From positions 119,259 through 169,210 of the forward strand of contig CALXMR010000002.1 in assembly GCA_944389525.1 (NCBI GenBank): 49,952 nt of DNA, given 5' to 3'. Below the pieces are notes generated by a model. It was not told where the DNA came from. It worked only from the letters and a program-made list of their open reading frames with translations, and did no database searches. This stretch comes from an uncultured Alphaproteobacteria bacterium (GTDB lineage Bacteria; Pseudomonadota; Alphaproteobacteria; Rs-D84). Shown in pieces: positions 3,920 through 48,999 of this stretch. A program made the position numbers and the translations under genes. How positions within the stretch are numbered: the stretch's first letter is position 1; the number at the start of each line of letters is the position of its first letter.

Positions 3920-3920
3920 G

Positions 3921-4350: not shown

Positions 4351-4357
4351 CCGGGGT

Positions 4358-4507: not shown

Positions 4508-4576
4508 ATTATTCTCCTTTTGCTTGAAAAAACTACATGCTGATTATACATGAAAACACCAGATATGCAAGTCGCA

Positions 4577-4918: not shown

Positions 4919-4948
4919 TCCAGAACCATTATATAACAGGTTTATATA

Positions 4949-4966
4949 TTCAAACAATCAGAAAAC
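4949..4966 (+). repeat. 18-bp direct repeat, left copy
   Basis: TTCAAACAATCAGAAAAC occurs here and again at 8104-8121 in the same orientation. The two copies bracket the tail-fibre-like gene and the AT-rich glycosyltransferase pair. Confidence 0.6.
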
Positions 4967-5002
4967 TGGGCAAATAAAATAGAAAAATAAAGGAGGCTCC
5001 CT

Positions 5003-5491: not shown

Positions 5492-5495
5492 TAGA

Positions 5496-5525
5496 ACCCG
5501 CGTTTTTACGCGGGGCATTTTTTTA
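5496..5525 (+). terminator. Rho-independent terminator of the tail-fibre-like gene
   Basis: The stem CCCGCG/CGCGGG with loop TTTTTA is followed by GCATTTTTTT. It overlaps the 3' end of the convergent glycosyltransferase gene. Confidence 0.8.
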
Positions 5526-7161: not shown

Positions 7162-7162
7162 A

Positions 7163-8062
7163 TTAATCTTTATACCGTAAAAATTTTATTGGAATGATTT
7201 TGAATATCCACAGTCTGTATTCGCTGCCATCGCGTTTTTGTTCCCACATTAGTGTGGTAATTTTATTAAACAATTTTAATTTCCAAATTATTTTATATGG
7301 CGATTGATGTAATTCCAATCGTGTTATATTCGCCATTAATGCCCCCTGTAATTCAGGTGGCGTAATTTTCATCAGCGTTTTTATTTTGGGAATATTGCAA
7401 ACGCCTTGCTTTTTAATAAAAGGGATACTGCGAATATAACCATCATAATATAATTTTAGTCCACATATTTTAGGTTCAACGCGTCCCAATTTGATATTAT
7501 GTCCCATTAACAATTGTGATAATCCAATTTCATATTTCCATACGATTTGGTTTTTTGATTCTTGATGCGTTACGCTGTGCATGAAATTTGAAAACCATGG
7601 TTGCTGGGTAATTGGTGCAGCAATACCAACAAACCATGATTGAACATGGTCTGGGTATCCATATTGTTCATTAACTGTGCTGTGTAATCCCATCATGCCA
7701 AATGCATTACCAGCATTTTTGCGTTCCATTCGTTCCAATATTGGTTTCAGATCAAACAATGGTCCAAACACAGAATCATTTACCAGATAAATAAATTCAT
7801 AATCTTTTAACAGATTATTTTTTTCAGCATATTCATACCCGCGTTTATATGAACCAAAATCATATTCACCATGGCGTGATGCGACCGCGCTGATAACACT
7901 GGGGATTCTTTTTACTTTATCCAGTTCCGTAGAAGAAATGTCATTGTCCATTGTAAAAATAATATCCCCCAGCCCAGACAGCGCGCGCAAATAATACAAC
8001 AACGTTTCGTCTACGATTTCATCACGATCATATGATGCAAATATAAACAGTCTGTTTTTCAT
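7163..8062 (-). CDS. Rhamnan synthesis protein F (RgpF)-like glycosyltransferase
   Basis: 299 aa beginning MKNRLFIFASYDRDEIVDETLLYYL. It shows the RgpF family signature: RHGEYDFGSYKRGYEYAE, then YEFIYLVNDSVFGPLFDL, and the later VQSWFVGI segment. RgpF proteins act in assembly of rhamnose-containing surface polysaccharides. The gene precedes the DUF616-type gene in the same operon. Both are AT-rich compared with the surrounding core genes. The start is the ATG at 8062; no strong Shine-Dalgarno is obvious. Confidence 0.82.
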   Translation of the reverse strand: MKNRLFIFASYDRDEIVDETLLYYLRALSGLGDIIFTMDNDISSTELDKVKRIPSVISAVASRHGEYDFGSYKRGYEYAEKNNLLKDYEFIYLVNDSVFGPLFDLKPILERMERKNAGNAFGMMGLHSTVNEQYGYPDHVQSWFVGIAAPITQQPWFSNFMHSVTHQESKNQIVWKYEIGLSQLLMGHNIKLGRVEPKICGLKLYYDGYIRSIPFIKKQGVCNIPKIKTLMKITPPELQGALMANITRLELHQSPYKIIWKLKLFNKITTLMWEQKRDGSEYRLWIFKIIPIKFLRYKD

Positions 8063-8103
8063 GGCATAAAACCTTGTATTAAAAATCTTTGCGCGGGTGG
8101 ATG

Positions 8104-8121
8104 TTCAAACAATCAGAAAAC
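8104..8121 (+). repeat. 18-bp direct repeat, right copy
   Basis: Identical to 4949-4966. It is positioned just upstream of the RgpF-like gene. Confidence 0.6.
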
Positions 8122-8194
8122 AAATTTCCAATCCCGTGCGTTTTGGGTATGGCGCACGCATCCACCCATGTGGGAATAAACTCGGACACATATG

Positions 8195-8227
8195 GAAAAA
8201 GAAAACCGCCTGAATTTTATTGGCGGT
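8195..8227 (-). terminator. Rho-independent terminator on the minus strand
   Basis: The stem ACCGCC/GGCGGT (8205-8227) is followed on the minus strand by TTTTCTTTTT. It ends a transcript coming from the gap 8228-8475 rather than a coding region. Confidence 0.65.
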
Positions 8228-8400
8228 CGGGATGTCAGAACGATCATCAAGCTAATACCCCCATTGGCTTTTGGTTTTCACCTGTTGTATAACCAACGGC
8301 ATCCCGACTTGGTACATATGTCGGGGAAACAGTGCAATCGCACTACTTTTTTACGGTGCGTCGCACCGATCTTGAAGAAATGTTCTAAGTCCCGAATTCC
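8228..8400 (-). ncRNA. Possible structured RNA upstream of the RgpF-like gene
   Basis: This gene-free gap contains several stems when read on the minus strand: CGGTGCG/CGCACCG, AGTGC/GCACT, CCCGAC/GTCGGG, and a long-range CGGGATG/CATCCCG closing a roughly 80-nt loop. They end at the terminator at 8195-8227. No open frame here looks like a protein. It could be a small RNA or an attenuating leader of the glycosyltransferase genes. No known RNA family was recognised and no promoter was assigned. Confidence 0.4.
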
Positions 8401-8475
8401 AATTCCCATTGAAATCCATGCCTATCTTAGTTCAGGGTGATAAAAATGTAAAGAAAAAAACGTGTTGTTTACCAA

Positions 8476-9264
8476 TTAAAATGCATACGGCTTTGCCTGG
8501 AAATTTTCGCGGGCCTGTTGCACATTTTTTGCCATATCTGACGCATTCAGACCATTATCCACCAAATCCAGCGATCCATAATATGCCGTCATCATCGGGT
8601 CATATGCATTGTTTGTCGAAATCCATTTGTCCGTACCAGAATTCGGTGCACCATATTTGTCCAAGACACCCTGCCAGAATGCCAGAATCTTTTTTTCACG
8701 CTGGTCTGCAAATTTTTCATGGTCACCTTCGATTTCATTGACATCGTTGTTGTACAGCACGCGCCACACGACATTATCTGTGGCATTGCTGGTAAAGTAT
8801 ACAACAACCGTCTCGCCAGTATTTTCCCGCACCAGGTGTAATTCCGCCGCATACAACAGCCCCCGGTCACGCGCCAATGTTTTTATACACTGATCCAGTT
8901 CGGCCGGTGCATAAATTCCTTGTTGTCTGCATTCGTAATCCAGATTATATTTCCAATCTTTTTGAATTGAATAAATAATACTGTCTTTTTCGCGCGGACT
9001 GTACAGTCCCTTGGTTTTAAAGAACAATGTTTCAACATCGTCATAGGACATCCCCAGCATTACACCGGCAATATCAAAGTTACTAACGGTAATTGGTTCA
9101 GCCCCAGAATTCAGGCTGACCGATGCCGCATTTAAATCAGTACCACCACTTTCTGTTATTGTGAATTGCTGGAAATCAAAATCATCTGTGGCGGCACAGA
9201 TTGGCATGACAATCGTCATTGAAAATAATACCGGTAAAAAATATATTCCAATACGCATCATCAC
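8476..9264 (-). CDS. Secreted protein of unknown function
   Basis: 262 aa with a cleavable signal peptide (MMMRIGIYFLPVLFSMTIVMPICAA). The mature protein contains SNFDIAGVMLGMSYDDVETL, a motif type seen in periplasmic proteins where a short beta-helix unit senses or binds a partner. It also has paired cysteines (YECRQQGIY, LDQCIKTL). The start overlaps the upstream VirB8-like gene by 4 bp (ATGA), so translation is coupled. The neighbours suggest a periplasmic partner of an envelope complex. No family name is offered. Confidence 0.65.
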   Translation of the reverse strand: MMMRIGIYFLPVLFSMTIVMPICAATDDFDFQQFTITESGGTDLNAASVSLNSGAEPITVSNFDIAGVMLGMSYDDVETLFFKTKGLYSPREKDSIIYSIQKDWKYNLDYECRQQGIYAPAELDQCIKTLARDRGLLYAAELHLVRENTGETVVVYFTSNATDNVVWRVLYNNDVNEIEGDHEKFADQREKKILAFWQGVLDKYGAPNSGTDKWISTNNAYDPMMTAYYGSLDLVDNGLNASDMAKNVQQARENFQAKPYAF

Positions 9265-9908
9265 AGTCCTTGGATTTCAGTTACAGTAAATTGGAATACC
9301 GCCGCCGGATCACCACCCCGTTCCAGATAATCGTGCAATGTATCAATATCAACCCCCACACCCTGGCGCAGGGTAGGCGCATATTCAATTTTCATATACA
9401 GTGTACCACGACTGACAACAGGTGGTACATCAAAATTATTTGGCGCCACCCATGTTACCAGTGCATAATTAACCACCCAATATTGACTGTTATTCGGTTT
9501 GTATATTTTATCGATAACATGCGCGATGCGCATCGCCTTGTCCGCGGCCAGATTTTGGATTGTGACTGCCTCGCCCTGGCGCCATTCGTTAAACACATCC
9601 GCCGTTGACATCAGTGCTAGTGTGCTTTGACCGCCGGTACGGCGTGCGATATTTTCCGGATCTGGTGCGGCATAGAAATATTCTGCCACATATCTGCGCA
9701 CTAACAGTTCCAAGAATTCAGATTCCCCAATTTCCGCGGCGGTTTTTGGTGTCCCTGGTCGGCGTTCAGACAAATTATTTGGTTGAAAGAAATAGGGCGT
9801 TATTTGCTGGCCACGGCCGGCGTCAAATATGGCACCGGCAACATATATCGCCACCCCGCAAAACGCCAGTAGTATTATACCCGCTAAAAATCCAACCAGT
9901 TTTTTCAT
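9261..9908 (-). CDS. VirB8-like membrane protein (second copy)
   Basis: 215 aa: one N-terminal membrane span (LVGFLAGIILLAFCGVAIYV), then a periplasmic domain. Size, topology and position fit the NTF2-like VirB8 fold: FLELLVRRYVAEYFYA, RIAHVIDKIYKPNNSQYWVVNYALVTWV, and a late strand YMKIEYAP. Sequence similarity to canonical VirB8 is weak. It is translationally coupled (4-bp overlap) both to the VirB8-like gene upstream and to the secreted protein downstream. No other type IV secretion genes are in the window. Confidence 0.5.
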   Translation of the reverse strand: MKKLVGFLAGIILLAFCGVAIYVAGAIFDAGRGQQITPYFFQPNNLSERRPGTPKTAAEIGESEFLELLVRRYVAEYFYAAPDPENIARRTGGQSTLALMSTADVFNEWRQGEAVTIQNLAADKAMRIAHVIDKIYKPNNSQYWVVNYALVTWVAPNNFDVPPVVSRGTLYMKIEYAPTLRQGVGVDIDTLHDYLERGGDPAAVFQFTVTEIQGL

Positions 9909-10609
9909 TCGCCTATCTTGTATGCATTAAAATCCGCCACATAGTACCCCAGTGTTAATGGATAACTATCAATATTTCGTACAATTTTGGCAAACCCGAT
10001 AACAGTCATATCGCCGTTTATGTTTGATTGTATCGTTGCCAACACGCGCCATGTTCCGCCATTTTCGTTTATTTCGCCGGCCGGCTGCATCTGGATTTGC
10101 GCTTTATCCACCACCCACCGTTCGCCATTTGCCACGCGCAATTGATAACCTGGCACAATATCTTTTATCAGTCTGGCAAACAACTCGCCCCCCGATGCAC
10201 AATACAGCGCACATGTCGTATCACCATATGGACGGGTTGCGTTTGTGCCACAATCATCGCGCCGTTCACATGTTTTCCACATCCGTTCGTTCGCGGCATC
10301 ATCCCCAGAAATAGTGAACCAGTTCGCCACAAAATTGCCCAGCACAGATTGCTGTAACGATCCCAGTGCCGTATACTCAATCGGACCATTTTTATGCGAA
10401 TGATCCAGTGTTGTCCACTGTCCAGTAATGTTGTTAATTGATACGATGAATGGGTCAACCCGCTGGGATCGCACCGCCCACAGCAATAATGCACACATGA
10501 ATATAACCAGCAAGAACATCACGCACGATGCAATTGCCATAAATCGCGATATGGCAATGGACCGCCCGGCTGGGAACGCCGGCGCATCAAAATCGCTTGG
10601 GTAATTCAA
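9905..10609 (-). CDS. VirB8-like type IV secretion inner-membrane protein
   Basis: 234 aa with a short cytoplasmic N-terminus and one span (ASCVMFLLVIFMCALLLWAV). The span is followed at once by the VirB8 hallmark VDPFIVSINNITGQWTTL. The rest is an NTF2-like periplasmic domain: LGNFVANWFTISGD, WVVDKAQIQMQP, GGTWRVLATIQ, GYYVADFNAYKIGE. An insertion with four cysteines (CERRDDCG, CALYCASG) is unusual for VirB8. VirB8 anchors the secretion core complex to the inner membrane. The gene starts a three-gene coupled set downstream of bamA. Its partners, if any, are outside the window. Confidence 0.6.
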   Translation of the reverse strand: MNYPSDFDAPAFPAGRSIAISRFMAIASCVMFLLVIFMCALLLWAVRSQRVDPFIVSINNITGQWTTLDHSHKNGPIEYTALGSLQQSVLGNFVANWFTISGDDAANERMWKTCERRDDCGTNATRPYGDTTCALYCASGGELFARLIKDIVPGYQLRVANGERWVVDKAQIQMQPAGEINENGGTWRVLATIQSNINGDMTVIGFAKIVRNIDSYPLTLGYYVADFNAYKIGE

Positions 10610-10645
10610 CGATATATCCCCCCACGGTACCGTTTTGTGTTTATT

Positions 10646-10792
10646 TTACGCCTGGAAAACCATGATGCATGCGCACGGGCTTAATTTCAATTCATTATTG
10701 TCGTATCCGACACCCACCGGTTCACGGTCATACACCTGGCCACATCCAGCCAACGCCAGTGCCACGAACAGACCCAATATAACCTTTTTCAT
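10646..10792 (-). CDS. Small lipoprotein, 48 aa
   Basis: Not visible as a long frame. ATG at 10792 follows a GGGGG box. The product begins MKKVILGLFVALALAGCGQ (lipobox LAGC, Cys17) and ends CACIMVFQA after a short mature region. It parallels the 49-aa lipoprotein at 4358-4507 in signal and size. It sits between bamA and the VirB8-like genes in the same direction. Such mini-lipoproteins are reminiscent of the short VirB7 lipoproteins that accompany VirB8-VirB10 complexes, but that link is only inference from size and position. Confidence 0.72.
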   Translation of the reverse strand: MKKVILGLFVALALAGCGQVYDREPVGVGYDNNELKLSPCACIMVFQA

Positions 10793-10864
10793 CGCTTTCC
10801 CCCTTTGCTGTATGAATTATATGAAAAATTCAATACATCGGTCAAGATATAAAACGCAACCACA

Positions 10865-13138
10865 TCAGAATTGTGTTTCAAACGACAGCAAGAACCGTTG
10901 TTCTTCATCATACTCGTTCATTTTCAGTGGCCAACCCCAACTGAAATTCATTGGTCCCATCGGCGTGTTCCAGTAAATACCAACACCAACCGATGTACGC
11001 AAATCTGTATCAATTTTGTTCGGCGCCCCCAGATATGTATATTCTTCTTTTGGCGGCTTGCCCAAGATACCGTAATCAAAGAACACAAAACCCTTTATCT
11101 GGTATTCATCCGGGATAAAGATGGGAAAGTTTAATTGCGTTGACCCGTTCAGTTTCCACAGTCCGCCCAACGAATATGTCGTCCACCACCAATTCCGTGA
11201 CCCGACCCCGGCGATATCAAACCCACGCAATGATTCACCACCCAAGAAATAGCGATATACACGGGAAATGTATGAATCGCCAATTGCCTGTAATGCGCCG
11301 AATTCCAGCGATGACCGCAACTGCCAGCGATCGTCCCAGAACTTTACCATACCGATGATATCGGCACTGTATCGCATATATGTTTCAGTTCCGCCGAACC
11401 CAGTATATGCAACCCCAATATTGCCCACGACACCAGTATGTGTATTTTGTTCAAAATTGGTATCCAGATTGTAATAGCGCAAATATGTACCCAATGTATA
11501 CAGATTGGCATCGCGCCATCCTGTTGCGGATTGAATATCATAATTCTGGTCGAACGATGCCGACAGACGCACAGTCTGGGACCAATGGTCGGTCAGCCGC
11601 CATCCCATACGCCCCGCCACGGTCAAAGAATCCCGATCGTATCCGAACCCGCCCAGCGATGAATAATCATACATTGTGTACGATACATCAAATCCGGCCG
11701 ACAATGGACGCCCGAACAAATACGGTTCGGTGAAACTGAACAAAGCCTGCTTTTGATATTCGGCGATTGACCCGCGCAGTTGAACAACCTGGCCACGGCC
11801 CATAAAGTTGCTTTCTGTGATGCCGGCATCAACCATAAATCCGTTGATGTTCGACCAACCAAATCCGCCCGACAGTTCACCTGTGGGTTGTTCTTCGACC
11901 TGGATATCCAGGTTAATCATATTGGCATCCGCAATACGATTAGGCACCATTTTCACATCTTTGAAATAGCGTGTCCGCATCAGGTTCTGGCGGCCTTCTT
12001 CGATTGTCTGTAATGAAAATGGGTCACCCGATCGCATTGGAATCAACTGTTCAATCACAGAATCAAATGTACGAACATTGCCCAATATGTTGATGTTATT
12101 CAGATAGATACGATTTGTTTTTTCTATCTTGAAATTCATATCAATTGTGCGGTCGTCATCGTTTTTGGTTGGAATTGGTTCGACATTTATAAACGCGTAT
12201 CCGTGATCGGCCACCGCCCCGCGCAGATTTGATATTGTTTCATCAACCAAATCGATATTATACACATCACCCGCGTCAAATGCGATTACATCGTACAGTT
12301 CGTCATCTGGGACATCTGGGAACGGGTTATCGATTGTAATTTTGCCAAAATCGTATTTTTCGCCTTCGTCAATTGTGAACACCACAGAATAGTATTGCCG
12401 ATCTGGGGTGAATTCGCCATCAGCGTCAGTTATTTCAACATCGACATAACCATTACGCATATAAAACTGGCGCAGCATTTGTTGGTCATACATAATTCGA
12501 TCTTCGTCAAAGACATCGAATTGCGTCATAAAACGCCACCACGCATGTTCGCGCGACAGTATCTCCCCACGCAGCGTTCGGTCACTGAACTTTTTATTTC
12601 CCTGGAAATCAATGTCCGTGATGTATGTCGGATGTCCTTCGGTAATTTCATAGACAACATTAACGCGATTATCCCCCAGGTCAATTTTCTTTGGTTCTAT
12701 TTTTGTACCAAAAAATCCATTGCGCTGGTATATGGTCAACATTCTTTGCACATCGGCGCCGATTACAGATTCATCATACGCAGACCGCGCCTTTAACCGT
12801 AATTCTTTTTTTAAATCTTCGGTATCGATTTCGTCATTTCCTTCGATTGTGACCATGTTGACGGTTGGTGCCTCGGTCACATCTATTTTCAGCACATTAC
12901 CCGACATACGAACGCTGACGCTGGAAAAATATCCACTTTCTTGCAGACGCTTTGCAATTTGATTTGCGGTTTCAGAACCGACATTATCACCCACCTGGAC
13001 ATCAGACAAAATTCGTACAGATTCTGCATCCATACGCTGGGTTCCGTTAACATCAATACGCGACACCGTGGCGGCATTTGCGCCCCATGTGACCATTACG
13101 GTGGCTGCTGTTAAAAATAATTTTTTTCTATTCATCAT
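10865..13138 (-). CDS. bamA: Outer-membrane protein assembly factor BamA
   Basis: 757 aa. Signal peptide ends ANA-A near residue 22. Five POTRA repeats follow, beginning VSRIDVNGTQRMDAESVRIL. The 16-strand Omp85 barrel from about residue 420 includes the lid-lock motif region (YFLGGESLRGFD) and a final strand ending in Phe (LLSFETQF). BamA inserts beta-barrel proteins into the outer membrane, so the organism is diderm. It overlaps rseP by 4 bp, the usual alphaproteobacterial order. The ATG pair at 13138/13135 leaves one residue of doubt about the start. The lpx genes that often follow are absent here. Confidence 0.97.
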   Translation of the reverse strand: MMNRKKLFLTAATVMVTWGANAATVSRIDVNGTQRMDAESVRILSDVQVGDNVGSETANQIAKRLQESGYFSSVSVRMSGNVLKIDVTEAPTVNMVTIEGNDEIDTEDLKKELRLKARSAYDESVIGADVQRMLTIYQRNGFFGTKIEPKKIDLGDNRVNVVYEITEGHPTYITDIDFQGNKKFSDRTLRGEILSREHAWWRFMTQFDVFDEDRIMYDQQMLRQFYMRNGYVDVEITDADGEFTPDRQYYSVVFTIDEGEKYDFGKITIDNPFPDVPDDELYDVIAFDAGDVYNIDLVDETISNLRGAVADHGYAFINVEPIPTKNDDDRTIDMNFKIEKTNRIYLNNINILGNVRTFDSVIEQLIPMRSGDPFSLQTIEEGRQNLMRTRYFKDVKMVPNRIADANMINLDIQVEEQPTGELSGGFGWSNINGFMVDAGITESNFMGRGQVVQLRGSIAEYQKQALFSFTEPYLFGRPLSAGFDVSYTMYDYSSLGGFGYDRDSLTVAGRMGWRLTDHWSQTVRLSASFDQNYDIQSATGWRDANLYTLGTYLRYYNLDTNFEQNTHTGVVGNIGVAYTGFGGTETYMRYSADIIGMVKFWDDRWQLRSSLEFGALQAIGDSYISRVYRYFLGGESLRGFDIAGVGSRNWWWTTYSLGGLWKLNGSTQLNFPIFIPDEYQIKGFVFFDYGILGKPPKEEYTYLGAPNKIDTDLRTSVGVGIYWNTPMGPMNFSWGWPLKMNEYDEEQRFLLSFETQF

Positions 13139-35505: not shown

Positions 35506-35582
35506 ACCCCTTAATAAGCTTGACTTTTAGACACTTTCGAGCCAGGTTACAGCTGAACTTAAATACTCTATTTGGATTTATT
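35506..35582. repeat. 77-bp inverted repeat, left copy
   Basis: Perfect inverted match to 49876-49952 (ACCCCTTAATAAGCTTGACT ... TTTGGATTTATT). It ends 18 bp before the recombinase start and so holds that gene's promoter. Together the copies bracket the 14.4-kb defence island. Confidence 0.9.
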
Positions 35583-35600
35583 AAACAAAAGGAGAATGTT

Positions 35601-36161
35601 ATGGCAATCGTATTGTATGCTCGTGTCAGTTCAATCGGTCAAAATCTGGATCGTCAATTACAGGATTCTGATAAATACGATCGTATCTTTGAAGATAAAT
35701 GTTCTGGTAAAAATACCGACAGACCTGCTTTGCAAGAAATGTTAAACTATATCCGCGAAGGTGATGAAGTATATGCCCACGAACTGTCGCGGTTGGCCAG
35801 AAACACTTTTGATTTAATAGATTTAGTAAATAAAATTCTGGCCAAGGGTGTTTCAATTCATTTTATCAAAGAAAACCTGCATTTTTCGCCAGACAAAGAT
35901 GATGCCACCAGCCAGTTGATATTGACCATATTGGCATCTATTGCACAATTTGAAAGGACTTTGATACGAACCCGCCAGCGGGAAGGCATAGCAATCGCCA
36001 AAGCCAATGGCAAGTTTAAGGGGACTAAGAAACGATTGACCGCGGCACAGATTCAAGAATTAAAAGAACTGGCACAGAACAGGATTGTTTGGCCAATATC
36101 TGAACTGATGAAACGATATTCCATCAGCCGTGCATCCGTGTATAATTATTTGAATGGGTAA
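35601..36161 (+). CDS. Serine recombinase (resolvase/invertase type)
   Basis: 186 aa small serine recombinase. Catalytic Ser10 or Ser11 lies in VLYARVSSIGQN; also RQLQ, EDKCSGKNTDRPALQEML and ELSRLARNTFDLIDLV (the ARN.DL segment). A C-terminal helix-turn-helix ends ISRASVYNYL. AAAGGAG lies 7 bp before the ATG. It sits immediately inside the left 77-bp inverted repeat, the usual position of a recombinase acting on flanking sites. Confidence 0.92.
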   Translation: MAIVLYARVSSIGQNLDRQLQDSDKYDRIFEDKCSGKNTDRPALQEMLNYIREGDEVYAHELSRLARNTFDLIDLVNKILAKGVSIHFIKENLHFSPDKDDATSQLILTILASIAQFERTLIRTRQREGIAIAKANGKFKGTKKRLTAAQIQELKELAQNRIVWPISELMKRYSISRASVYNYLNG

Positions 36162-39665: not shown

Positions 39666-39786
39666 TTCATCGCCCTTTGTTTAATCTATACAGTTATTTA
39701 TCAGTGTGAAATATTATTGTTTTACGAATAATTTATCCCGACCATTTGGCCAGATGATTTATGAAAACTGTCCAAAAACATCTTTC

Positions 39787-39822
39787 TTTTTTAAGAAAAA
39801 ATGTGCTAAATTCTTAAAAATG
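39787..39822 (+). promoter_or_regulatory. Orphan copy of the DUF6088-gene promoter/operator
   Basis: 35 of 36 bases identical to 48049-48084, including TTAAGAAAAA, TGTGCTAAA and TCTTAA dyad, and ATG. Here ATG is followed by CTC CGT TAA, so the gene is gone and only its control region remains. Confidence 0.7.
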
Positions 39823-39842: not shown

Positions 39843-40460
39843 TCACCCCAGTGAATTAGTGTTGATAAATATTTCCCGTTTTAAAAATTTTGCAAGTGTA
39901 GTTCTGCTGGTTTTTAACCTCTTGGCGATTTGTCGTTGAGAAATTCCTGATCGCAACAAATTTTCTATAACTTGTTTATGGACAGATAATTTTAGTGAAT
40001 TACTAAGTCTGCCCTTGGGTCTTCCCAATATTACTCCTGCTTCTTTTCTAGCAGCCAGAGCTTCTTTGGTTCTCTGTGATATTAAATTTCTTTCTATTTC
40101 CGCGGCTAATCCAAAAGCAAAGGCCAATACTTTAGATTGTATATCTGTATTCAAACGAAAGTTATCTTTTATTGTCCATACCTGGACACCAGAATTTGTA
40201 CAATGATTCAATATAGCCATAACTTCCAATAATTTTCTGCCCAGTCGGGATAATTCACTGGCTATTATAATATCATCTTGATGCAGCCGTTTAATAAGAG
40301 TTCCTAATTTTCGTTTGCTAACATCTTTTGTTGCACTGATGGTTTCTTCAACCCATTTGTCTACTGATAATTCATTATTTTTACAAAATTTATTTATTTC
40401 ATACCTTTGGTTTTCTGTTGTTTGTTTGTCGGTACTGACCCTTATATATCCGTATATCAT
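39843..40460 (-). CDS. DNA invertase, Mpi/Hin-type serine recombinase
   Basis: 205 aa. Catalytic Ser9 in IYGYIRVSTDKQTTENQRYEI; ELSRLGRKLLEVMAIL and FAFGLAAEIERNLISQRTKEALAARK are full invertase/resolvase motifs. C-terminal helix-turn-helix GISQRQIAKRLKTSRTTLAKFL. Similar in outline to Mpi, the master invertase that switches many promoters in Bacteroides. It lies 53 bp from the left 50-bp inverted repeat of the restriction locus, so it is the likely enzyme of that switch. Confidence 0.92.
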   Translation of the reverse strand: MIYGYIRVSTDKQTTENQRYEINKFCKNNELSVDKWVEETISATKDVSKRKLGTLIKRLHQDDIIIASELSRLGRKLLEVMAILNHCTNSGVQVWTIKDNFRLNTDIQSKVLAFAFGLAAEIERNLISQRTKEALAARKEAGVILGRPKGRLSNSLKLSVHKQVIENLLRSGISQRQIAKRLKTSRTTLAKFLKREIFINTNSLG

Positions 40461-40512
40461 CTTATGTTCCTATGTTTTGTACCTTTCCTTGTATAACCAT
40501 TATACTGGATTA

Positions 40513-40562
40513 GAAAATATGAGCGATTTAATTGAACAAGATGGTCAGTATATGAACTTTAC
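40513..40562 (+). repeat. 50-bp inverted repeat of the methyltransferase switch, left copy
   Basis: 49 of 50 bases match the reverse complement of 42139-42188. It encodes ENMSDLIEQDGQYMNFT in both copies, in the same frame relative to the specificity domain. Outside it the two copies keep about 70% similarity toward the cassette side. Confidence 0.9.
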
Positions 40563-41385
40563 CTCTGAGCCTTGGGTAATCCTTTCTCCAATAGAACAAT
40601 CAATCAAGGCTAAAATAGAAAAATATGGAACACCGTTAAAGAATTGGAATGTAAATATATACCGTGGAATATTAACAGGATGTAACGAAGCATTTATAAT
40701 AGATGAGGCCAAGAAAAACGAATTAATAGCCAAAGATCCAAATTCGGCCCAAATTATACGACCGATTTTACGAGGCAAGGACATTAAACGATATGGATAT
40801 GATTTTAAGGGATTGTATCTAATTGCAACCCATAATGGATATAAAGATGTTCCAAGGGTAAATATTGATGATTATCCTGCAATTAAAGAATGGCTGGATA
40901 ATGGCGGTATTGCATATAACGGCAAAGAATATAAAGGATATGAAATTATAGCCAAAAGAGCCGATCAAGGTGATACACCGTATAATCTTCGTAGCTGTGC
41001 TTATATGGACGATTTTTCTAAGCCGAAAATTGTATATCAAGAACTTACACAAGGTAGTCGTTTTGCTATAGATAAAGCTGGGGAATACTTCGTGTCAAAT
41101 ACAGCTTATTTACTTACGGGGGATAAATTACAATATCTCTTGAAAGTTTTAAATTCTAAGATAATAGAATTTGCTTTTAAAACTTATTATTCAACCTCAA
41201 TGGGGAACACAGGAATTCGTTGGCTCAATCAGTATATTATGAACTTACCAATTGTAGTCCCTTTGTATGATACAGAACAAGCTATTACAAATTCAACGGG
41301 GATCGAAATCGAACAACATCTTGGCGATTTGTATCATTTGAGCGACTTAGAGATGCAATTCATTTCTGCTTCAGTTAAACAGTAA
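40519..41385 (+). CDS. Silent alternative specificity cassette of the methyltransferase
   Basis: 288 aa. Begins with the same MSDLIEQDGQYMNFTSEPWV as residues 817-836 of the methyltransferase, then a TaqI-like specificity domain that resembles but differs from the active one (YRGILTGCNEAFIIDEAKK, IIRPILRGKDIKRYGYDF versus YGIKTGCNEAFIINEAKR, IIRPILRGRDIKRYSYEF). After about residue 130 the two diverge strongly, as expected for different DNA targets. It lies head-to-head with the invertase gene and tail-to-tail (52-bp overlap) with the active gene. It has no promoter or catalytic domain, so it is a storage copy. Confidence 0.85.
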   Translation: MSDLIEQDGQYMNFTSEPWVILSPIEQSIKAKIEKYGTPLKNWNVNIYRGILTGCNEAFIIDEAKKNELIAKDPNSAQIIRPILRGKDIKRYGYDFKGLYLIATHNGYKDVPRVNIDDYPAIKEWLDNGGIAYNGKEYKGYEIIAKRADQGDTPYNLRSCAYMDDFSKPKIVYQELTQGSRFAIDKAGEYFVSNTAYLLTGDKLQYLLKVLNSKIIEFAFKTYYSTSMGNTGIRWLNQYIMNLPIVVPLYDTEQAITNSTGIEIEQHLGDLYHLSDLEMQFISASVKQ

Positions 41386-44300
41386 TTGGCTCCTTTATCA
41401 CAAACGGGGAATCTAAGTACACTATCCTTAGTTAAAGAAATGCCGCTATCGTTTAGTAATGGAGAGGTATTATACATATACCAGGTAAAAATCTCAGAAC
41501 TCATAATTGAATATATATGTTTAATTGTTTCTAATTCATCTGCGACTAATACGAAACAGGTTTTGTCGGGGTAATAACCTTCAATGTCAAATGCTATTTT
41601 TGTTGCTTTAGCATTATTAGTTTCAGAGTAGCAAATTTTCGGCTTAGAAAAATCGTCCCAATAATTTATACTATCTTGAGTTTCAAACCATTTATTATTC
41701 GTTTTTTTGCGAGATTTAAATTTAATACCCCCTACAATATGCTCAGCTCCTGTTTGTTCTAATCGTAATTTGCCAGTACCGATTGGAGATTTTGGTAATA
41801 CCCAATCGCCATTTATCAACCAATCTTTGACAGCTGGGAACTGTTCTATGTCGTAATGTTTGCTTGGAAAGGTGCAAATCAAATATAAATTTGCAAATTC
41901 GTACGAATATCTTTTTATATCACGGCCTCGTAAAATCGGTCGTATAATCTCTGCCGATTTAGGGTCTTTCTTTATAAGTTCCGCTCGTTTGGCCTCGTTG
42001 ATAATAAATGCCTCGTTACACCCAGTTTTAATTCCATAATTTATTTCAATATCCCAATCTTTTAATGGGGTGCCATATTTCTCTAGTTTTTCTTTTATAG
42101 ATTGCTCTATGGGGGACAAAATTACCCAAGGTTCGGATGTAAAGTTCATATACTGCCCATCTTGTTCAATTAAATCGCTCATATTTTCCATACCAGTGTC
42201 TTTTGGTCTAGACCAACACCAGGTTTGAGTAGATTTGCTTAAAGAGTTCTGAACCAACAAGATATTAGTATCAACGGTAGCACTTTTAAAAACTTGCCCA
42301 CCCATATCGACCAACAGCTTAGGTGTATATTTCGTTGAAAACAAATGTCTTAAACCTTCGCCATAGCCAGATCGCAACCATTTATTAGAAGTTATATAAC
42401 ACAAATGACCATTTGGTTTTAAAAGTTGCATACCCTTTTCATAAAATAAACAATACAGATCAATACTTCCTGTCTTTACCTGCCATTTTTTTGGGTCAGA
42501 GTAATAAGTTTTCAATTCGCCTTTTATTTCTTCAAGGCTGATGTATGGTGGATTTCCTATAACTATATCAAAGCCATCTTCTAATCCAAACATCCATTTA
42601 TAATCAAAAAATCCGGCCGAAGCATTTTGATTATACGGATCCCATTTAGCAATTTCCTTTGCTTGTCGTTGCAGTTCAAAAGTAGCATCCATTCCATTTG
42701 CTTCCAGCACTTTTGATAATTCTTTTCGCAGATCTTTGTCTCTATCACGGTATTTATGTTTTTCTTCCCAGGTTTTTGCATTAAAATGCTGGTGTCGTAT
42801 ACGATTTATTTTGTGTTGAATTTCTTCTATTTCTGTATCACCAAACAATGACATATTTCTGGGTTTTTCTATGTCTATTAGTGTATTTGCGGACACAAAC
42901 TTGGTTTCTAAATTCGGCAGCTGTGCAATTCCATAATTATCATTTGGATTATCATTCTTTTCTTTTTGATCGCATATCAATGAAATAAAAAATCTAAGTT
43001 TGCTAATTTGGACAGCAATTGGCTGAATATCAACACCATAAATACAGTTTTCTATTAGTTGTAGCTTTGTATTATAAGGATCAAGTTCAGGATCAATATC
43101 TTTCAATCTGTCCATTATATTGTTTAATATTCCCATAGGGAAAGCCCCAGAACCACAGGCTGGGTCTATGATTTTTATTTCTTGTAATGCTTTTTTTATA
43201 TCAGATTGCTTTGTTTCAAAATCTTTGCCTATAACTGTCTCAAGATAAGCATTAATGGAATTATCAACCATATAATCCACTATTTCTCTTGGTGTATAAA
43301 AACTTCCCGAGCTTTTTCTCGCACTTTCCCCCGTTTCTGGGTTATATACGGCCAACAAATTTTCAAATACTTTGCCCAATAATTCTGGGTCTAATGCTAC
43401 TTCTATATCACTGCTGGTATTTTCTTCTACGGTAAAATTATATTTTTTGAAAATATTTATAATCCCATTAACTGTTTTTTCTTTTGAATCTATGATGGTC
43501 TTATGTTCATTAGCAAAGAACAGTGCATTTGGGACAAATGCTCGTTTTTTAGGTACATCATCACGGCTGAAGCCGTCATAATACTCAATTTTGGGTTTTG
43601 GATTATTTTTTGTTTCATCTTCTATTTCTTCTTTTATTTGATCCAGGCATTCAAATAATCCACCATTTAAGAAGGGGACAGGTTCAAATAATTTAATTAT
43701 ATCTTCGTGTGATTTCTTAAACCAAGTGGTTTGATTTTTACGACCGTCATTATCGCGAAACAAAGTTTTTATTCCATATTCACGATGTCCAGCAGCAAAT
43801 CTTCTTTCATTAATTTTTTTGTTTAATGAAGCAAAAAATAAATTTTGTAATATAGCATTATAATAATTACCTTCTGTATAACTGTCTGGATTAAAAGATA
43901 CTAAAATATCTTCTTTCAATTTTTGTTCATTAAATAAAACATCTGGAACAAAACCCTTCTGTTTGATAAACCACACAAACATTAATCTGGTAATTAAACG
44001 GATTAAATGCTTTGGCAAAAAACTTCTGTCATCATCTGGGTCACAGGAATTATTTGGGTAATGAACCCCCGCTTCTTCTGATGAAGCCCACATATACCAA
44101 TCATATAATTCTCCATAAAATGCACTGGTAAGAGTTTCTATACTGAAGCGATTGCCTAAATCTTCTAAACCCTTGACCCGACCCTTTTCAATCAAAAATT
44201 GTGTTGGGGTTTTAATATGTTGTCCTTTCCCAAGCAAAAAGGAATATCGTTTTGAAGGGGTTTTATCCCATTCTACTTTTCCTTCCTTATTCCACTTTGG

Positions 44301-44630
44301 AGACATTTTTATAAAAGAAAATCTCCAAACTAAGGGATCACCTTCTCGGACAAAAGCAACCAAAGCATATGTGATTTGGTTGTTTTGCATATACTTAACC
44401 ATCTCGTTTGATAATGTGACACGGGCATCTGCTTTGGCTGTGTGTATTACCTCAAAAATTTGCAAATTATCCAAAGATGGAACGGTGCCTAAATTTAATA
44501 TATCCTTTATCAGCCCGCGACCTATAAGAGGTTCTTGAAGCTGGGTGGGACGGTAATCATTTGGCAAGAACTGATCTTCTAAAAATTGTTGAAAACTATC
44601 GCGGTCGTATGCTTCGTCTAAGTAGATCAT
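41334..44630 (-). CDS. Eco57I-like DNA adenine methyltransferase with switchable TaqI-like specificity domain
   Basis: 1098 aa. Long N-terminal helical region; GSFYTPREIVDYMV near 455; SAM motif I IIDPACGSGAFPMGIL near 487; catalytic IVIGNPPYISLEE with NPPY at about 693-696; target-recognition region from about 832. Methylates adenine in a specific site. The gene overlaps the downstream end of the PLD-helicase gene by 4 bp (ATGA), so the two are a coupled operon. No PD-(D/E)xK nuclease motif is obvious at the N-terminus, so cleavage is probably by the partner. The 50-bp repeat at residues 814-831 lets inversion replace the last 267 residues. Confidence 0.88.
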   Translation of the reverse strand: MIYLDEAYDRDSFQQFLEDQFLPNDYRPTQLQEPLIGRGLIKDILNLGTVPSLDNLQIFEVIHTAKADARVTLSNEMVKYMQNNQITYALVAFVREGDPLVWRFSFIKMSPKWNKEGKVEWDKTPSKRYSFLLGKGQHIKTPTQFLIEKGRVKGLEDLGNRFSIETLTSAFYGELYDWYMWASSEEAGVHYPNNSCDPDDDRSFLPKHLIRLITRLMFVWFIKQKGFVPDVLFNEQKLKEDILVSFNPDSYTEGNYYNAILQNLFFASLNKKINERRFAAGHREYGIKTLFRDNDGRKNQTTWFKKSHEDIIKLFEPVPFLNGGLFECLDQIKEEIEDETKNNPKPKIEYYDGFSRDDVPKKRAFVPNALFFANEHKTIIDSKEKTVNGIINIFKKYNFTVEENTSSDIEVALDPELLGKVFENLLAVYNPETGESARKSSGSFYTPREIVDYMVDNSINAYLETVIGKDFETKQSDIKKALQEIKIIDPACGSGAFPMGILNNIMDRLKDIDPELDPYNTKLQLIENCIYGVDIQPIAVQISKLRFFISLICDQKEKNDNPNDNYGIAQLPNLETKFVSANTLIDIEKPRNMSLFGDTEIEEIQHKINRIRHQHFNAKTWEEKHKYRDRDKDLRKELSKVLEANGMDATFELQRQAKEIAKWDPYNQNASAGFFDYKWMFGLEDGFDIVIGNPPYISLEEIKGELKTYYSDPKKWQVKTGSIDLYCLFYEKGMQLLKPNGHLCYITSNKWLRSGYGEGLRHLFSTKYTPKLLVDMGGQVFKSATVDTNILLVQNSLSKSTQTWCWSRPKDTGMENMSDLIEQDGQYMNFTSEPWVILSPIEQSIKEKLEKYGTPLKDWDIEINYGIKTGCNEAFIINEAKRAELIKKDPKSAEIIRPILRGRDIKRYSYEFANLYLICTFPSKHYDIEQFPAVKDWLINGDWVLPKSPIGTGKLRLEQTGAEHIVGGIKFKSRKKTNNKWFETQDSINYWDDFSKPKICYSETNNAKATKIAFDIEGYYPDKTCFVLVADELETIKHIYSIMSSEIFTWYMYNTSPLLNDSGISLTKDSVLRFPVCDKGANYCLTEAEMNCISKSLK
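42139..42188 (-). repeat. 50-bp inverted repeat of the methyltransferase switch, right copy
   Basis: Mirror of 40513-40562, lying inside the active methyltransferase gene just before the specificity domain. Confidence 0.9.
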
Positions 44631-47600
44631 ATCATTTCCTCCGCCAAGATGACATTTTCTGGCTCTTTATCTATTTTGTCTGCAGATTTCAGAATATGTA
44701 ATAAAATCTCTATAGAAATGCTTTCTTTTAATTTTTTACAATCTTTTGCTTTGTTTATTGGGGATAAATCTGGCAACCCATCTAGTTCCAGTACTTTAAA
44801 TAGCAGTTCCAGATACTCCTTATCACATTGCTCGTCATTACTATTCAACATAGCCCGTACTTTTGACAATGCTTTGACTCGCGGTGTACTAACTTTTGCC
44901 TTTTGGGTTGTAAACAGATTGTCTTTAATATTTTGGTATACATTATAAAAACTTTCTGAGACCGCTATTGATTTTTCGTTTTTAGAAGCCTCAAACAAAG
45001 GAATTGCTTCTTCTGGTGATATGTATTCTGGTGTCTCATCATAAGGTTGTTGCCATTTGAAAACACATTCGCCCCCTCGTTTTCCAAACACGATTATACC
45101 AGGATGGCCATTAGATTTTGTCCTTTGTATTTTTGTTCTCGGGTTAATAGCCAGTGCTTCTTGGTATTCAAACAGTTTTTTTGTGTTTTCCCATTCTTCG
45201 CGATATTTTGTGTCCCAAGATAATTCTTCTGACTCTTCTTTTGCCTTATTAAACTCATTATTAAATTTAGATAAAGTCAACTTTTCTGTTTTGTCTAAAA
45301 TCTTGGTATCCCCGCCCATAATGGCATGAATCATCCGCATTTTAATTGTTGTAATTCTTTGCAGATTTACATTGCTGGCACCAACTTCTGATGGGAAGTA
45401 GTTGTAAATATACAATTCATCAAAAACTTTCTTGTTAATACGGTTTATACGACCAATTCGTTGAATTACCCTTGTAGGATTATATGGTATATCATAATTA
45501 AATATTGTGCCGGCTCTGTGCAAATTATAACCTTCTGAAATAGCATCTGTGGCCACCAATATTTTATAAAAGTCTTTCTGCTGATTACTTGGCAATCCTG
45601 CATCAAAATTCTCTATTATAGCCTTTTTATTGACGGTATTGGCTATATCAGATGAATAACAAAATACAGGCAGACCATCTTTTTTTAACCTTGAGTATAG
45701 ATACTTTACAGTATCTGCAAATTCGCTGAATATTACTATTTTGCGATTTGGTTCTTCTTTTAGCATTTTATTAATTTTATTTATAAATGTATCGTATTTA
45801 GGGTCATCTGTTATGTTGCCTTTATCCCCAAACCAATCTTTATAAATTTTATCTAATATTTCCGCATCTTGTTTTACATCTGATATGAATTCTGGTTTTA
45901 TCCAATCCATATCTAATTCAACCAATCCTTTGGCTTTCAATTCAGATACTTTCATCTCTACTTGGTCAATACCGTCCAAAAGAGATGTCATATCTTTGTC
46001 TTCACTATCTTCTTTTAATGCCTTGATGTCTGGCAAATACCCCCGTTTATATACAGGTATAGTATGCCTGACCTCTATCCAGTTTAAAATCGTCCGTGAA
46101 TTATTTCTCAGAGATTGAAGAGATGCTTTGAAAGAAGCGATTGAACTCTCAAATCTATGCACTAACAGCCGTCTCATAAAATTAGCCAAATTGCTCTGGG
46201 AACCTTCCAAGAATACCCATTCTGCTTCTTCATCAGACATTGCTCTGATAATTTTATCTTTCGCGGGCTCTTTTGCATATTTTAGTGGTTGATATCTGGC
46301 CGCCTTATATACACCATCCTTTATACTTCTTGGTGATTCTTCTTCGTCAAAATCTTTTGGGTATATCACATCCAATGTGTTTATATATTTTTCTTCTAAG
46401 TCGCCTAAATCGTATGATATAATCTCAGGATCTCTGACTTTGGAAAACTTGATATTTTGTTTGGCCAAGTCTTTTTTATATTTGCTACTGGCTTCCAAAT
46501 CTTTTCTGGATCTACGAATAACTACAGGGGTTATTATATGTTGTATCCTTTTTGCGATTTTTTTCACCAAATCATCAAATGCTTCTTGTACCGCTTTATT
46601 ATTTTTGTTATCTCTGGCTTCTTTGTATGCTTTATTATATTCCCTGATAAGTTCTTCAAATTGACCGCCCAAATTATTAATGTTTCTTAATGTGGTTTTT
46701 TCCGGAATTTGGAATAACCGTATTAAGTTATATATGTCATCTGGTTTATTGCTATATGGGGTCGCGGTTAACAACATCACTTTGTTATAGCCACCTTTTG
46801 ACAATCTGTATAAATTATCATAATCTTTGTTTTTATTACGATACTTATGGGCTTCATCCACTATTAATAAAAAGGGCTGTTCATCGTTGGCAAATTTGTC
46901 CGCTACTTCTGATATTTTTCCGCTAGAGAACACATGCGAATTATGTTGGATATGAAAATCTTTGCAATAATCTTCCCATTGAGTTTTTAAATGAGGTGGG
47001 GCGATGACAATAACAGGCATATTCATATTTGCTGCAATCGCAGAGGCAATAATTGATTTACCCAGTCCAACAACATCGGCAATGATAACCCCATTATGCC
47101 TTTTAAGTCTGTTTATACCTTCTATTATTGCATCTGTTTGATATGCAAAATCGTTATAAACCTTTCCATCCGGCAACCGATTATCTTTAGTTATTTCATA
47201 CGGTGTTTTAAAATCCTGTGGTGCGGTTGTGCTAAAATACTCTTCTAATACTCGTAAATAAACTAAATATGGAGAGGGTAATTTGTCTATCCATATTTTT
47301 TCCACAACATTTTTACGGAACTCCTCCCAAATATCAACATCTGCTATTGGTGTTGCACTGTCCCATAATGTATCAAAATATTCTTTGCCTTGATTATATT
47401 CTTCTCCATGAAAAATAACATTTAATTCATGTTGAGTTCTTAATCCGGCCCCAGATAAATTACTAGATCCAATTATCATATGGCCAGGCAGTGTATTACC
47501 AAATTTATCGCTGTCCTTGGCTTCAAATAGGTACATTTTAGCATGATTTGGATCTTTAGTTTTTCGTATTTGTAATGTGCCTTGTTTGATTTTATCACAA

Positions 47601-47935
47601 AACAATCTGAAAGACTCTACAGAATCTTTTGTGTCCATCCTGTTTGTGTCAAATAATTTTACAATCTTTTCCCACTGTTGCTTCTGGTCTTCGCTTTTAG
47701 AAACTCGCTGATAATCTAATTCTTCTATTTCTCTTATACCTTTTAACAAATCTATATCTATGTCTAGACCATATAAAATTTTTAAATTCTTATCAGCTAA
47801 CCCCTTATACAGTTCTCTAAAACCAGAATAATAAAAATACCCGATCAAGAATCGGACATCTGCACAATTAGGAAGGGCATCGTTTATTATGCTGGCCAAA
47901 GTAGTTTCTTGATTTGTAATAAGTTTTCCCGACAT
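44627..47935 (-). CDS. PLD-nuclease/SNF2-helicase fusion, putative restriction subunit
   Basis: 1102 aa. A PLD-like nuclease domain at about 20-190 contains H131-A-K133 (NHAKMYLF) and GSSNLS (156-161), one HxK(x)n N/S set. SNF2 ATPase: DVVGLGKS (287-294), VDEAH (359-363), LLTATPYSNKP. Helicase C-terminal domain with FSEFADTVKYL, ATDAISEGYNLH and RVIQRIGRINRI near 825. A roughly 250-residue C-terminal helical part is unassigned. It probably translocates on and cuts unmodified DNA, with the coupled methyltransferase giving protection. Not DISARM: DrmA and DrmB are absent. Confidence 0.85.
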   Translation of the reverse strand: MSGKLITNQETTLASIINDALPNCADVRFLIGYFYYSGFRELYKGLADKNLKILYGLDIDIDLLKGIREIEELDYQRVSKSEDQKQQWEKIVKLFDTNRMDTKDSVESFRLFCDKIKQGTLQIRKTKDPNHAKMYLFEAKDSDKFGNTLPGHMIIGSSNLSGAGLRTQHELNVIFHGEEYNQGKEYFDTLWDSATPIADVDIWEEFRKNVVEKIWIDKLPSPYLVYLRVLEEYFSTTAPQDFKTPYEITKDNRLPDGKVYNDFAYQTDAIIEGINRLKRHNGVIIADVVGLGKSIIASAIAANMNMPVIVIAPPHLKTQWEDYCKDFHIQHNSHVFSSGKISEVADKFANDEQPFLLIVDEAHKYRNKNKDYDNLYRLSKGGYNKVMLLTATPYSNKPDDIYNLIRLFQIPEKTTLRNINNLGGQFEELIREYNKAYKEARDNKNNKAVQEAFDDLVKKIAKRIQHIITPVVIRRSRKDLEASSKYKKDLAKQNIKFSKVRDPEIISYDLGDLEEKYINTLDVIYPKDFDEEESPRSIKDGVYKAARYQPLKYAKEPAKDKIIRAMSDEEAEWVFLEGSQSNLANFMRRLLVHRFESSIASFKASLQSLRNNSRTILNWIEVRHTIPVYKRGYLPDIKALKEDSEDKDMTSLLDGIDQVEMKVSELKAKGLVELDMDWIKPEFISDVKQDAEILDKIYKDWFGDKGNITDDPKYDTFINKINKMLKEEPNRKIVIFSEFADTVKYLYSRLKKDGLPVFCYSSDIANTVNKKAIIENFDAGLPSNQQKDFYKILVATDAISEGYNLHRAGTIFNYDIPYNPTRVIQRIGRINRINKKVFDELYIYNYFPSEVGASNVNLQRITTIKMRMIHAIMGGDTKILDKTEKLTLSKFNNEFNKAKEESEELSWDTKYREEWENTKKLFEYQEALAINPRTKIQRTKSNGHPGIIVFGKRGGECVFKWQQPYDETPEYISPEEAIPLFEASKNEKSIAVSESFYNVYQNIKDNLFTTQKAKVSTPRVKALSKVRAMLNSNDEQCDKEYLELLFKVLELDGLPDLSPINKAKDCKKLKESISIEILLHILKSADKIDKEPENVILAEEMI

Positions 47936-48048
47936 TTGTCCCCTTCCTTTTGATGGATAATATAGATTTTAATCCTGATGTGTTAAAAACATCTTAATAA
48001 AAGCGGTTTTACAAATCAAGGTTCAATTATACACTTACACTCCGTTTG

Positions 48049-48084
48049 TTTTTTAAGAAAAAATGTGCTAAAATCTTAAAAATG
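48049..48084 (+). promoter_or_regulatory. Promoter/operator of the DUF6088-methyltransferase gene
   Basis: TTAAGA ... TCTTAA dyad around an extended -10 (TGTGCTAAAAT), ending at the ATG, which implies a leaderless or near-leaderless transcript. AbiEi-type antitoxins bind such dyads; duplicated at 39787-39822. Confidence 0.6.
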
Positions 48085-48999
48085 GCACAGTCAGTTAAAG
48101 ATAAAATATTATCCTTGGTTAAATCTTGCCCAGACCGTTTTATCTGGGCAGACAGAATACCAGATTACAAACGGACTGATATTGATGTGGCATTATATTC
48201 ATTGGCACAGGAACAAAAATTAATTCGTATAATTCCTGGACTATATTTTTACCCAGGTCGCAAGAAATCTGTTCCATCTGTTGATACATTGGCCAATGCC
48301 ATCGCTGATAAATACCATTGGAATATATCAAAAACAAACGAACCTGGTGTTTATCTGGCCAGCACCCCGCGAACAAAACAATATGCCTTTAATGGCCAAA
48401 AAATCACATTCAAACAATGTGCTGGTAAAAAACTGGCGGAAACAAATGATAAACGGCAACATTCACATTATTTATACCTGCATAATTCACCACTGCAAGA
48501 TGAACAATATACCCCAAAGCAAGCGGTTGAACTGATTATCCCATATCTGGAACAGCTGTATCATAAATTAAATCACCCAATTACAGTTTGGTGTCCAGCG
48601 GATACATCTGATTCCCAATATTATCAAGTTTTATCTGAATTACCGTATTGCAGGGTTATTGCAACCCACTTATCAGATGGTTTTGATTTTCTGACCACGA
48701 TTCCAGATTTTGAATTTGATTGCATAATAACGAATCCGCCGTTCAGGGACAAGAAAAACTGGCTGGTCAAAGCATTGAAATACAACAAACCGTTTGCTTT
48801 ATTATTACCCGCCAGCTGGTTAAATGATAATGGTGCATTGGATGCCTATGCCAAGGCAAACAAATCTATGCAATTACTAATTCCAAACAAGCGATTTAAT
48901 TTTATTGGAAATGACAAACAAGTCCCATTCAAGGCAATTTATTACTGCTGGGACTTGCTAAATCAACCAATCGTATATTGTACAATAAATAAAAATTAA
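48082..48999 (+). CDS. DUF6088 winged-helix protein fused to a methyltransferase-like domain
   Basis: 305 aa from MAQSVKDKILSLVK. The N-terminal 100 residues are a DUF6088/AbiEi-type winged helix (CPDRFIWADRIPDYKRTDIDVALYSLAQEQKLIRIIPGLYFYP, quoted in parts: RTDIDVALYSLAQ, LIRIIPGLYFYPG). The C-terminal half has ADTSDSQYYQVL and CIITNPPFRDKKNWL, an N-terminal methyltransferase-like NPPF site, and LLLPASWLNDNG, as in Dam-like phage methyltransferases. I find no clear SAM motif I. Divergent from the helicase gene, so it may regulate or partner the restriction operon. Confidence 0.7.
   Translation: MAQSVKDKILSLVKSCPDRFIWADRIPDYKRTDIDVALYSLAQEQKLIRIIPGLYFYPGRKKSVPSVDTLANAIADKYHWNISKTNEPGVYLASTPRTKQYAFNGQKITFKQCAGKKLAETNDKRQHSHYLYLHNSPLQDEQYTPKQAVELIIPYLEQLYHKLNHPITVWCPADTSDSQYYQVLSELPYCRVIATHLSDGFDFLTTIPDFEFDCIITNPPFRDKKNWLVKALKYNKPFALLLPASWLNDNGALDAYAKANKSMQLLIPNKRFNFIGNDKQVPFKAIYYCWDLLNQPIVYCTINKN

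Follow-up and report, generated by a model that had tools for sequence, protein, structure and literature searches.

The stretch of DNA analyzed here, referred to as the window, comprises 49,952 nucleotides from an uncultured alphaproteobacterium (GenBank assembly GCA_944389525.1, contig CALXMR010000002.1) and contains a restriction-modification gene pair that adjoins an apparent specificity switch. The pair lies on the minus strand in a tight operon, in which the open reading frame (ORF) of a 1102-residue PLD nuclease-SNF2 helicase (44627-47935) overlaps by 4 bp the start of the ORF of a 1098-residue N6-adenine DNA methyltransferase (41334-44630). In the methyltransferase, residues ~1-814 form the body and residues 815-1098 the recognition region. 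A second copy of the C-terminal recognition region only is found 3' of the methyltransferase gene on the plus strand (40519-41385), as an ORF of 288 residues with no stop that overlaps the methyltransferase ORF tail to tail by 52 bp. Beyond this silent cassette, on the minus strand, is the gene for a 205-residue Mpi-family serine DNA invertase (39843-40460), the start of which is 52 bp from a predicted invertible segment of 1676 bp (40513-42188).

The original prediction had described the helicase as carrying its own PLD domain and the pair as belonging to no named system. PLDc_2 (35.3 bits; cut-off 27), SNF2-rel_dom and Helicase_C domains were found in the helicase ORF, and its PLD motif (H131, K133, GSSN at 156-159 and E170) was invariant in 30 homologues, as were the helicase motifs. 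Judged by HxK plus GSSN/GSxN, the protein is a member of the PLD nuclease superfamily; no solved structure matched it by sequence. The methyltransferase matched Eco57I (139 bits) and TaqI_C (34.3 bits), its motif I (DPACGSG) and NPPY were invariant or nearly so in 35 homologues, and its best PADLOC model was REase_MTase_IIG (454 bits). In a VIA-align fold comparison, which covered the methyltransferase after residue 120 and the helicase outside its PLD part, the former matched CamA (Z 32), BrxX, M.BseCI, LlaGI and M.TaqI, the LlaGI/LlaBIII-type match extending over residues 166-857 (Z ~26), and the latter matched SNF2 motors (Z ~19), with SauUSI lower in its Foldseek list. Pfam reported no nuclease domain in the methyltransferase chain, the N-terminal part of which was barely covered by the fold matches.

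By family membership, the host of the switch is a two-gene restriction-modification pair composed of a PLD-SNF2 helicase and an Eco57I/TaqI_C-type methyltransferase. It may work like a type I or type ISP enzyme that is split into two chains and equipped with a PLD nuclease, and would presumably cleave DNA. Scores fell well short of the curated thresholds for BREX PglX (87.6 bits versus 500), DISARM DrmD (136.8 bits versus 610) and MAD2, and the flanking ORFs tested included no PglZ or BrxC, no DrmA or DrmB and no DUF499 ATPase of the BREX-related Type-2 / Hma kind. The type ISP arrangement of a single chain does not apply to the two ORFs 44627-47935 and 41334-44630. By these comparisons the pair belongs to neither BREX, DISARM nor Hma, and as far as tested it remains without a name, as originally claimed.

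The cassette and the active gene share an inverted repeat, here called A, with one arm on the silent side (40513-40562, plus strand) and the other on the active side (42139-42188, minus strand; methyltransferase residues 815-831). The arms agree at 49 of 50 positions, and both encode ENMSDLIEQDG in frame. Their longest exact stretch is 32 bp; when 40400-42300 was shuffled 200 times by dinucleotides, the longest exact inverted match averaged 12.3 bp and never exceeded 20 bp. Beyond A, the arms are alike at lower identity (76% over 303 nt). When 40513-42188 was inverted in silico, an intact methyltransferase of 1104 residues resulted, compared with 1098 in the present form. The cassette scored higher than the active copy on TaqI_C (53.9 versus 34.3 bits) and reached 250 bits with the PADLOC IIG model, and a consensus scan recognized no promoter 5' of it. 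The adjoining gene product matched NCBIfam NF009949, "master DNA invertase Mpi family," with 304.7 bits over residues 1-197 (cut-off 272), as well as Pfam Resolvase (117 bits). The repeat, the silent cassette, the preserved frame and the Mpi-like invertase, all of which had been proposed from the DNA alone, were thus confirmed, and the invertase is predicted to flip the 40513-42188 segment. Two more Mpi paralogues, 63% and 48% identical, occur in the same genome (G000; C3:88075-88653 and C2:51074-51658), and a second serine recombinase is encoded within the window at 35520-36161.

A search of genome databases for the same neighborhood, which had been suggested as a check, found that the layout recurs. 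With the methyltransferase body as query, we scanned 84,980 species genomes and kept the best 80 relatives; 50 of these loci have at least 2.2 kb of DNA past A, and in 12 of the 50 an Mpi-type invertase lies within 3 kb of A. With later Prevotella-family loci included, 17 loci, one of them the window, have an active recognition region together with a silent one encoded on the other strand. They come from an alphaproteobacterial genus and from Bacteroidota, Elusimicrobiota and Ignavibacteriae. The full layout of an active region, a back-to-front second region and an adjoining Mpi invertase was found in at least 16 loci besides the window, and the invertases next to this structure show 59-73% identity. 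Given this recurrence across phyla, the layout is, on comparative grounds, an old, selected device. The suggested check on the cassette frame in relatives gave the same answer throughout, in that inversion left the methyltransferase open in 11 of the 11 loci tested (the window and 10 others), with the normal stop reached after 196-339 recognition residues. Among loci with a cassette that begins at A, the repeat opens at one same codon (TTGAGCG[A/T]TTT...), and the left border of A falls at the identical codon in 8 loci. The exact match at A is merely 20-23 bp in two loci, L070 and L056, which is about the size expected for a serine-recombinase site.

Oral Prevotella and Porphyromonas are among the carriers, and Prevotella denticola NCTC13067 (L069) and Porphyromonas gulae DSM 15663 (L075/L162) are carriers that have been cultured. 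The helicase-methyltransferase pair is present in Prevotella sp. oral taxon 299 (L136) and Parabacteroides distasonis (L135) without invertase or inverted cassette. Conversely, loci L200 and L206 have window-type recognition regions on methyltransferases of 1257-1309 residues, together with an inverted copy and an Mpi invertase, and no relative of the PLD helicase was detected near either of them; the switch, as far as these loci tell, is therefore not tied to the PLD-SNF2 host. The larger bodies that carry window-like recognition regions, in L205 as well as in L206 and L200, are 29-33% identical to the body in the window, with no PLD-helicase relative found nearby. At L035 (G006, 7831-11280), a related helicase is accompanied by an 893-residue methyltransferase and an adjoining Mpi invertase (61%), and 131-nt inverted arms stand 5 nt apart with both recognition regions gone, by real deletion or assembly collapse. 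In G025, the contig with a related helicase-methyltransferase (L034 end) stops inside a recognition region of another kind, and another contig (L161 start) opens beside a 74% identical Mpi invertase. This locus may or may not be the same switch broken by assembly, as it first seemed.

The inverted repetition consists of three nested pairs rather than one. Inside A, which begins at residue 815, lie B (residue 897) and C (residue 990), neither of which appeared in the original prediction. B is an exact 24-bp match between 40753-40776 (plus strand, silent side, RPILRG motif) and 41925-41948 (minus strand, active side, motif RPILRGRD from residue 897), and C is an exact 25-bp match between 41007-41031 (plus strand, silent side, encoding DDFSKPKI) and 41634-41658 (minus strand, active side, motif YWDDFSKPKI from residue 990). 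The exact pairs at A, B and C (32, 24 and 25 bp) all exceed the shuffle maximum of 20 bp. Site A is at the end of the catalytic domain, where the matches to M.TaqI and BrxX stop (residues 836 and 847), B is where the TaqI_C recognition domain begins, and C lies within that domain.

We compared the codons of the active and silent regions in 11 loci, using only positions with the same amino acid and excluding M and W. Codons were identical at 60 of 64 positions in A (94%), 66 of 86 in B (77%) and 76 of 82 in C (93%), versus 526 of 1102 elsewhere (48%). Among 5000 label shuffles within loci, the observed value was reached by none for A, one for B and none for C. Because the choice of codon itself is locked at the three sites, conservation of the protein alone cannot, by this test, explain the identity. 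Between loci, codon identity at C was 75%, versus 43% elsewhere. Furthermore, the silent cassettes of L055 and L109 start at B instead of A.

The sites divide the recognition region into an A-B linker, a B-C half-domain and a C-end half-domain. The linker occurs in two types, N (NYGIKTG) and R (RG[IV]LTG), and the 17 loci contain 3 types of the B-C half and at least 16 of the C-end half. The active region of the window combines an N-type linker with half-domain type 1, and its silent cassette combines an R-type linker with half-domain type 3. The two B-C halves of one locus differ in type in 17 of 17 loci, as do the linkers in 14 of the 15 loci with both typed. Across loci, the parts are exchanged: all six combinations of linker and half-domain are present, one C-end type occurs with different B-C types, and each half-domain type is active in some locus and silent in another. 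Before C, the silent region of L070 shares 85% identity with its silent counterpart in L063; after C, it shares 65% identity with the active region of L063. Since gene conversion would tend to make two copies alike, differences within loci combined with reassortment are, in the loci compared, the pattern of inversion, which retains both alleles while reshuffling them.

Locus L201 (G319, 3900-7700) is an expanded, shufflon-like array: its methyltransferase is cut short at B, one strand holds two cassettes that begin at A or B, and the opposite strand holds two half-domains that begin at C. Its breaks fall exactly at B and C and create a B-C junction. The L201 junctions suggested matching crossover dinucleotides at B and C (CC and GG), but support for this idea is too thin for a claim.

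Related genomes also bear on whether the segment moves. The sister genome G063 is 99.4% identical to the window over 6,007 bp, and it has four differences in the 22 bp past the crossover zone. Because three of the four are alleles of the window's cassette arm, these positions indicate that, in G063, the methyltransferase body continues into cassette-side DNA. In G068 (L033/L055), the silent first half-domain is 86% identical to the active one of the window and the active first half-domain is 81% identical to the silent one of the window, whereas the second half-domains are only 26% and 31% identical. By these cross-identities, the same pair of first half-domains is in opposite places in the two genomes. 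In one genome of cultured Porphyromonas gulae and one of Alistipes, an identical 141-bp sequence, in inverted array, terminates both the contig with the methyltransferase and the contig with the invertase, and contigs end 0-1000 bp past A in 19 of the 80 loci. Such ends fit a switch, but a plain assembly limit could produce them too; because assemblies of short reads break at long identical inverted repeats in any case, they are not proof of mixed states.

The repeats, the frames that stay open, the protein families, the recurrence of the layout and the way in which segments are reassorted between loci together make it highly probable that the window contains an ATP-dependent restriction-modification system of two genes into which a switch of specificity is built, the segment being flipped by the adjoining invertase. 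The methyltransferase would have its target recognition region at the C terminus and an unexpressed second one directly downstream, back to front, and the dedicated Mpi-type serine invertase would invert the 1.68-kb segment between the A repeats. Every flip would give a full-length methyltransferase with the other recognition region and so, presumably, another methylation motif, and the PLD-SNF2 helicase would cut DNA left unmodified at the site of the current methyltransferase. B and C, as candidate invertase sites, would probably recombine as well, such that the A-B linker, the B-C half-domain and the C-end half-domain are exchanged singly (2 x 2 x 2 = 8 proteins). We moderately favor the view that B and C are recombination sites and that a locus can produce up to eight recognition proteins. 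The broader proposal, that one Mpi-type invertase shuffles A, B and C independently to as many as eight specificities and that the module is mobile among unrelated methyltransferase bodies across phyla, has our slight preference.

Several points weigh against this interpretation. Both orientations within one strain were seen at no locus in the assemblies compared, and methylation or restriction data were found for no member of the family. Past the crossover zone, the G063 contig continues for only 22 bp, and gene conversion of one arm could yield the same sequence. The nuclease role of the PLD domain is based on conserved motifs only. B is the weakest pair, with a between-locus codon identity near background (48% versus 43%), and the reassortment at B and C compares species, where homologous exchange between lineages could produce it without an invertase.

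The last point leads to the alternative that we take most seriously, in which A is the sole recombination site, the arms agree at B and C because the protein motifs there are conserved, and half-domains were reassorted by horizontal exchange at conserved stretches. RPILRGRD and DDFxKPKI are indeed conserved protein motifs, and domain movement within HsdS-type specificity genes is known (PMC3077401). The locking of codons, not just of protein, at C (93%) and B (77%) against 48% elsewhere argues the other way, as do the cassettes of L055 and L109 that start at B and the breaks of L201 exactly at B and C; we consider this alternative possible and hold it the less probable one. That general homologous recombination or gene conversion by RecA acts at the repeats, with the invertase a passenger that acts elsewhere, appears unlikely. 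Some loci have long identical arms that RecA could use (80 bp in L077, 67 bp at B in L063, 128/135 in L065), the arms in the window are 76% alike over 303 nt, and the genome contains other Mpi paralogues that would suit a passenger. Yet the 20-23-bp exact repeats at A in L070 and L056 are short for RecA, the left borders are sharp and at one same codon, linker and half-domain types stay unlike within a locus although conversion tends to equalize them, and every such locus, in whichever phylum, has a 59-73% identical Mpi-family invertase next to its cassette.

The remaining alternatives concern the cassette itself. The locus might act mainly as an on/off switch, that is, by phase variation of activity with one recognition region non-functional, and off-states may arise, as the L201 methyltransferase that stops at B illustrates. 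Both recognition regions of the window are intact and match recognition-domain families, however, and every half-domain type is active in one locus and silent in another. With the frame kept on inversion, an adjoining invertase of the right family and the junction in G063, the evidence supports the switch of specificity originally proposed, and we regard an on/off function as improbable. Still less probable, and to be given very little credence, is a cassette that arose by partial duplication of the methyltransferase gene, is in decay and takes no part in switching. Switching was not directly observed in this genome and the cassette has no recognizable promoter, which would suit decay; against this, the cassette is fully open over 288 residues and outscores the active copy on TaqI_C (53.9 versus 34.3 bits), inversion preserves the frame in all 11 loci tested, and several phyla share the layout.

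In type I systems, the switched gene encodes a separate S subunit, HsdS, usually together with a tyrosine recombinase. Inversions of pneumococcal hsdS (PMC4948785) and a survey of duplicated hsdS loci in REBASE (PMC7394358) have been published, and the window resembles such systems in its silent, opposite specificity sequence, its in-gene inverted repeats, the predicted change of target by inversion and the nested repeats that would give several alleles. Unlike HsdS, the window would switch the C-terminal recognition region of a single-chain methyltransferase by means of a serine, Mpi-type invertase, and with a PLD-SNF2 partner. In Lactobacillus BREX, a partial second pglX occurs with an integrase, and the heterogeneity of PglX has been termed phase variation (PMC7513527). 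The window likewise has an adenine methyltransferase gene beside a partial copy and a recombinase, but its methyltransferase is far below the PglX cut-off and its flanking ORFs include no PglZ or BrxC. Milman, Yelin and Kishony (NAR 2023, a study that PMC11892184 cites) reportedly predicted more than 11,000 loci of gene-altering programmed inversions, with type II restriction-modification as a new target family. The window shares with these the gene and inverted partial copy, the size asymmetry and the adjacent recombinase, and loci of the window type may be among the predictions.

With regard to the host, SauUSI is a modification-dependent single enzyme, and both CglI and NgoAVII have their nuclease and helicase on separate chains; we know of no invertible recognition region in SauUSI, CglI or NgoAVII. 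PMC7913695 and PMC5737866 present these three as restriction enzymes that unite a PLD nuclease with an ATPase, and PMC5737866 describes a two-protein composition for CglI. The window has the same combination of PLD nuclease and superfamily 2 (SF2) ATPase, and SauUSI was among the fold matches of its helicase. Like the type ISP enzymes LlaGI and LlaBIII, the window pair has an ATP-dependent helicase, a methyltransferase and a recognition region, but those enzymes are one chain with another nuclease domain, whereas the window has two chains and a PLD nuclease. BREX-related Type-2 / Hma systems contain a fusion of an HKD (PLD) nuclease with a Swi2/Snf2 helicase, an N6-methyltransferase and a DUF499 ATPase (PMC12839542). 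The fusion and the N6-methyltransferase are shared with the window, which is without the DUF499 ATPase among its flanking ORFs, and PMC12839542 makes no mention of inversion. Invertible specificity as a kind is already known, from HsdS (PMC4948785, PMC7394358) and from BREX pglX (PMC7513527). In our literature searches, no PLD-SNF2/methyltransferase pair was described as having an invertible recognition region, although an earlier description in Milman et al. 2023 is possible. As far as checked, the new elements are the PLD-SNF2 pair as host, the spread over phyla and the three-site shuffling of half-domains in a single-chain methyltransferase gene.

A population that switches its restriction specificity would hold several methylation states at once, and a phage or plasmid modified in one cell would be foreign to the next; methylation-sensitive gene expression may vary with switching as well. 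The two-gene PLD-SNF2 system is a little studied host for such a switch. Three conserved B-C types with freely exchanged partners offer a natural experiment on the reading of DNA by recognition halves, one that could help to predict or engineer specificity.

The whole unit of helicase, methyltransferase, cassette and invertase is bracketed by 40-bp direct repeats that are 92-95% identical (39783-39822 and 48045-48084, both plus strand), which suggests that it was inserted, or can be lost, as one block. A gene at 48046-48999, the product of which has an AbiEi-like N terminus, begins within the right copy. On the other side, an AAA_14/DUF4143 ATPase encoded at 36174-37427 matches PADLOC PDC-S01 with 461 bits. 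With one such gene on each side of the system, the region is likely a defence island.

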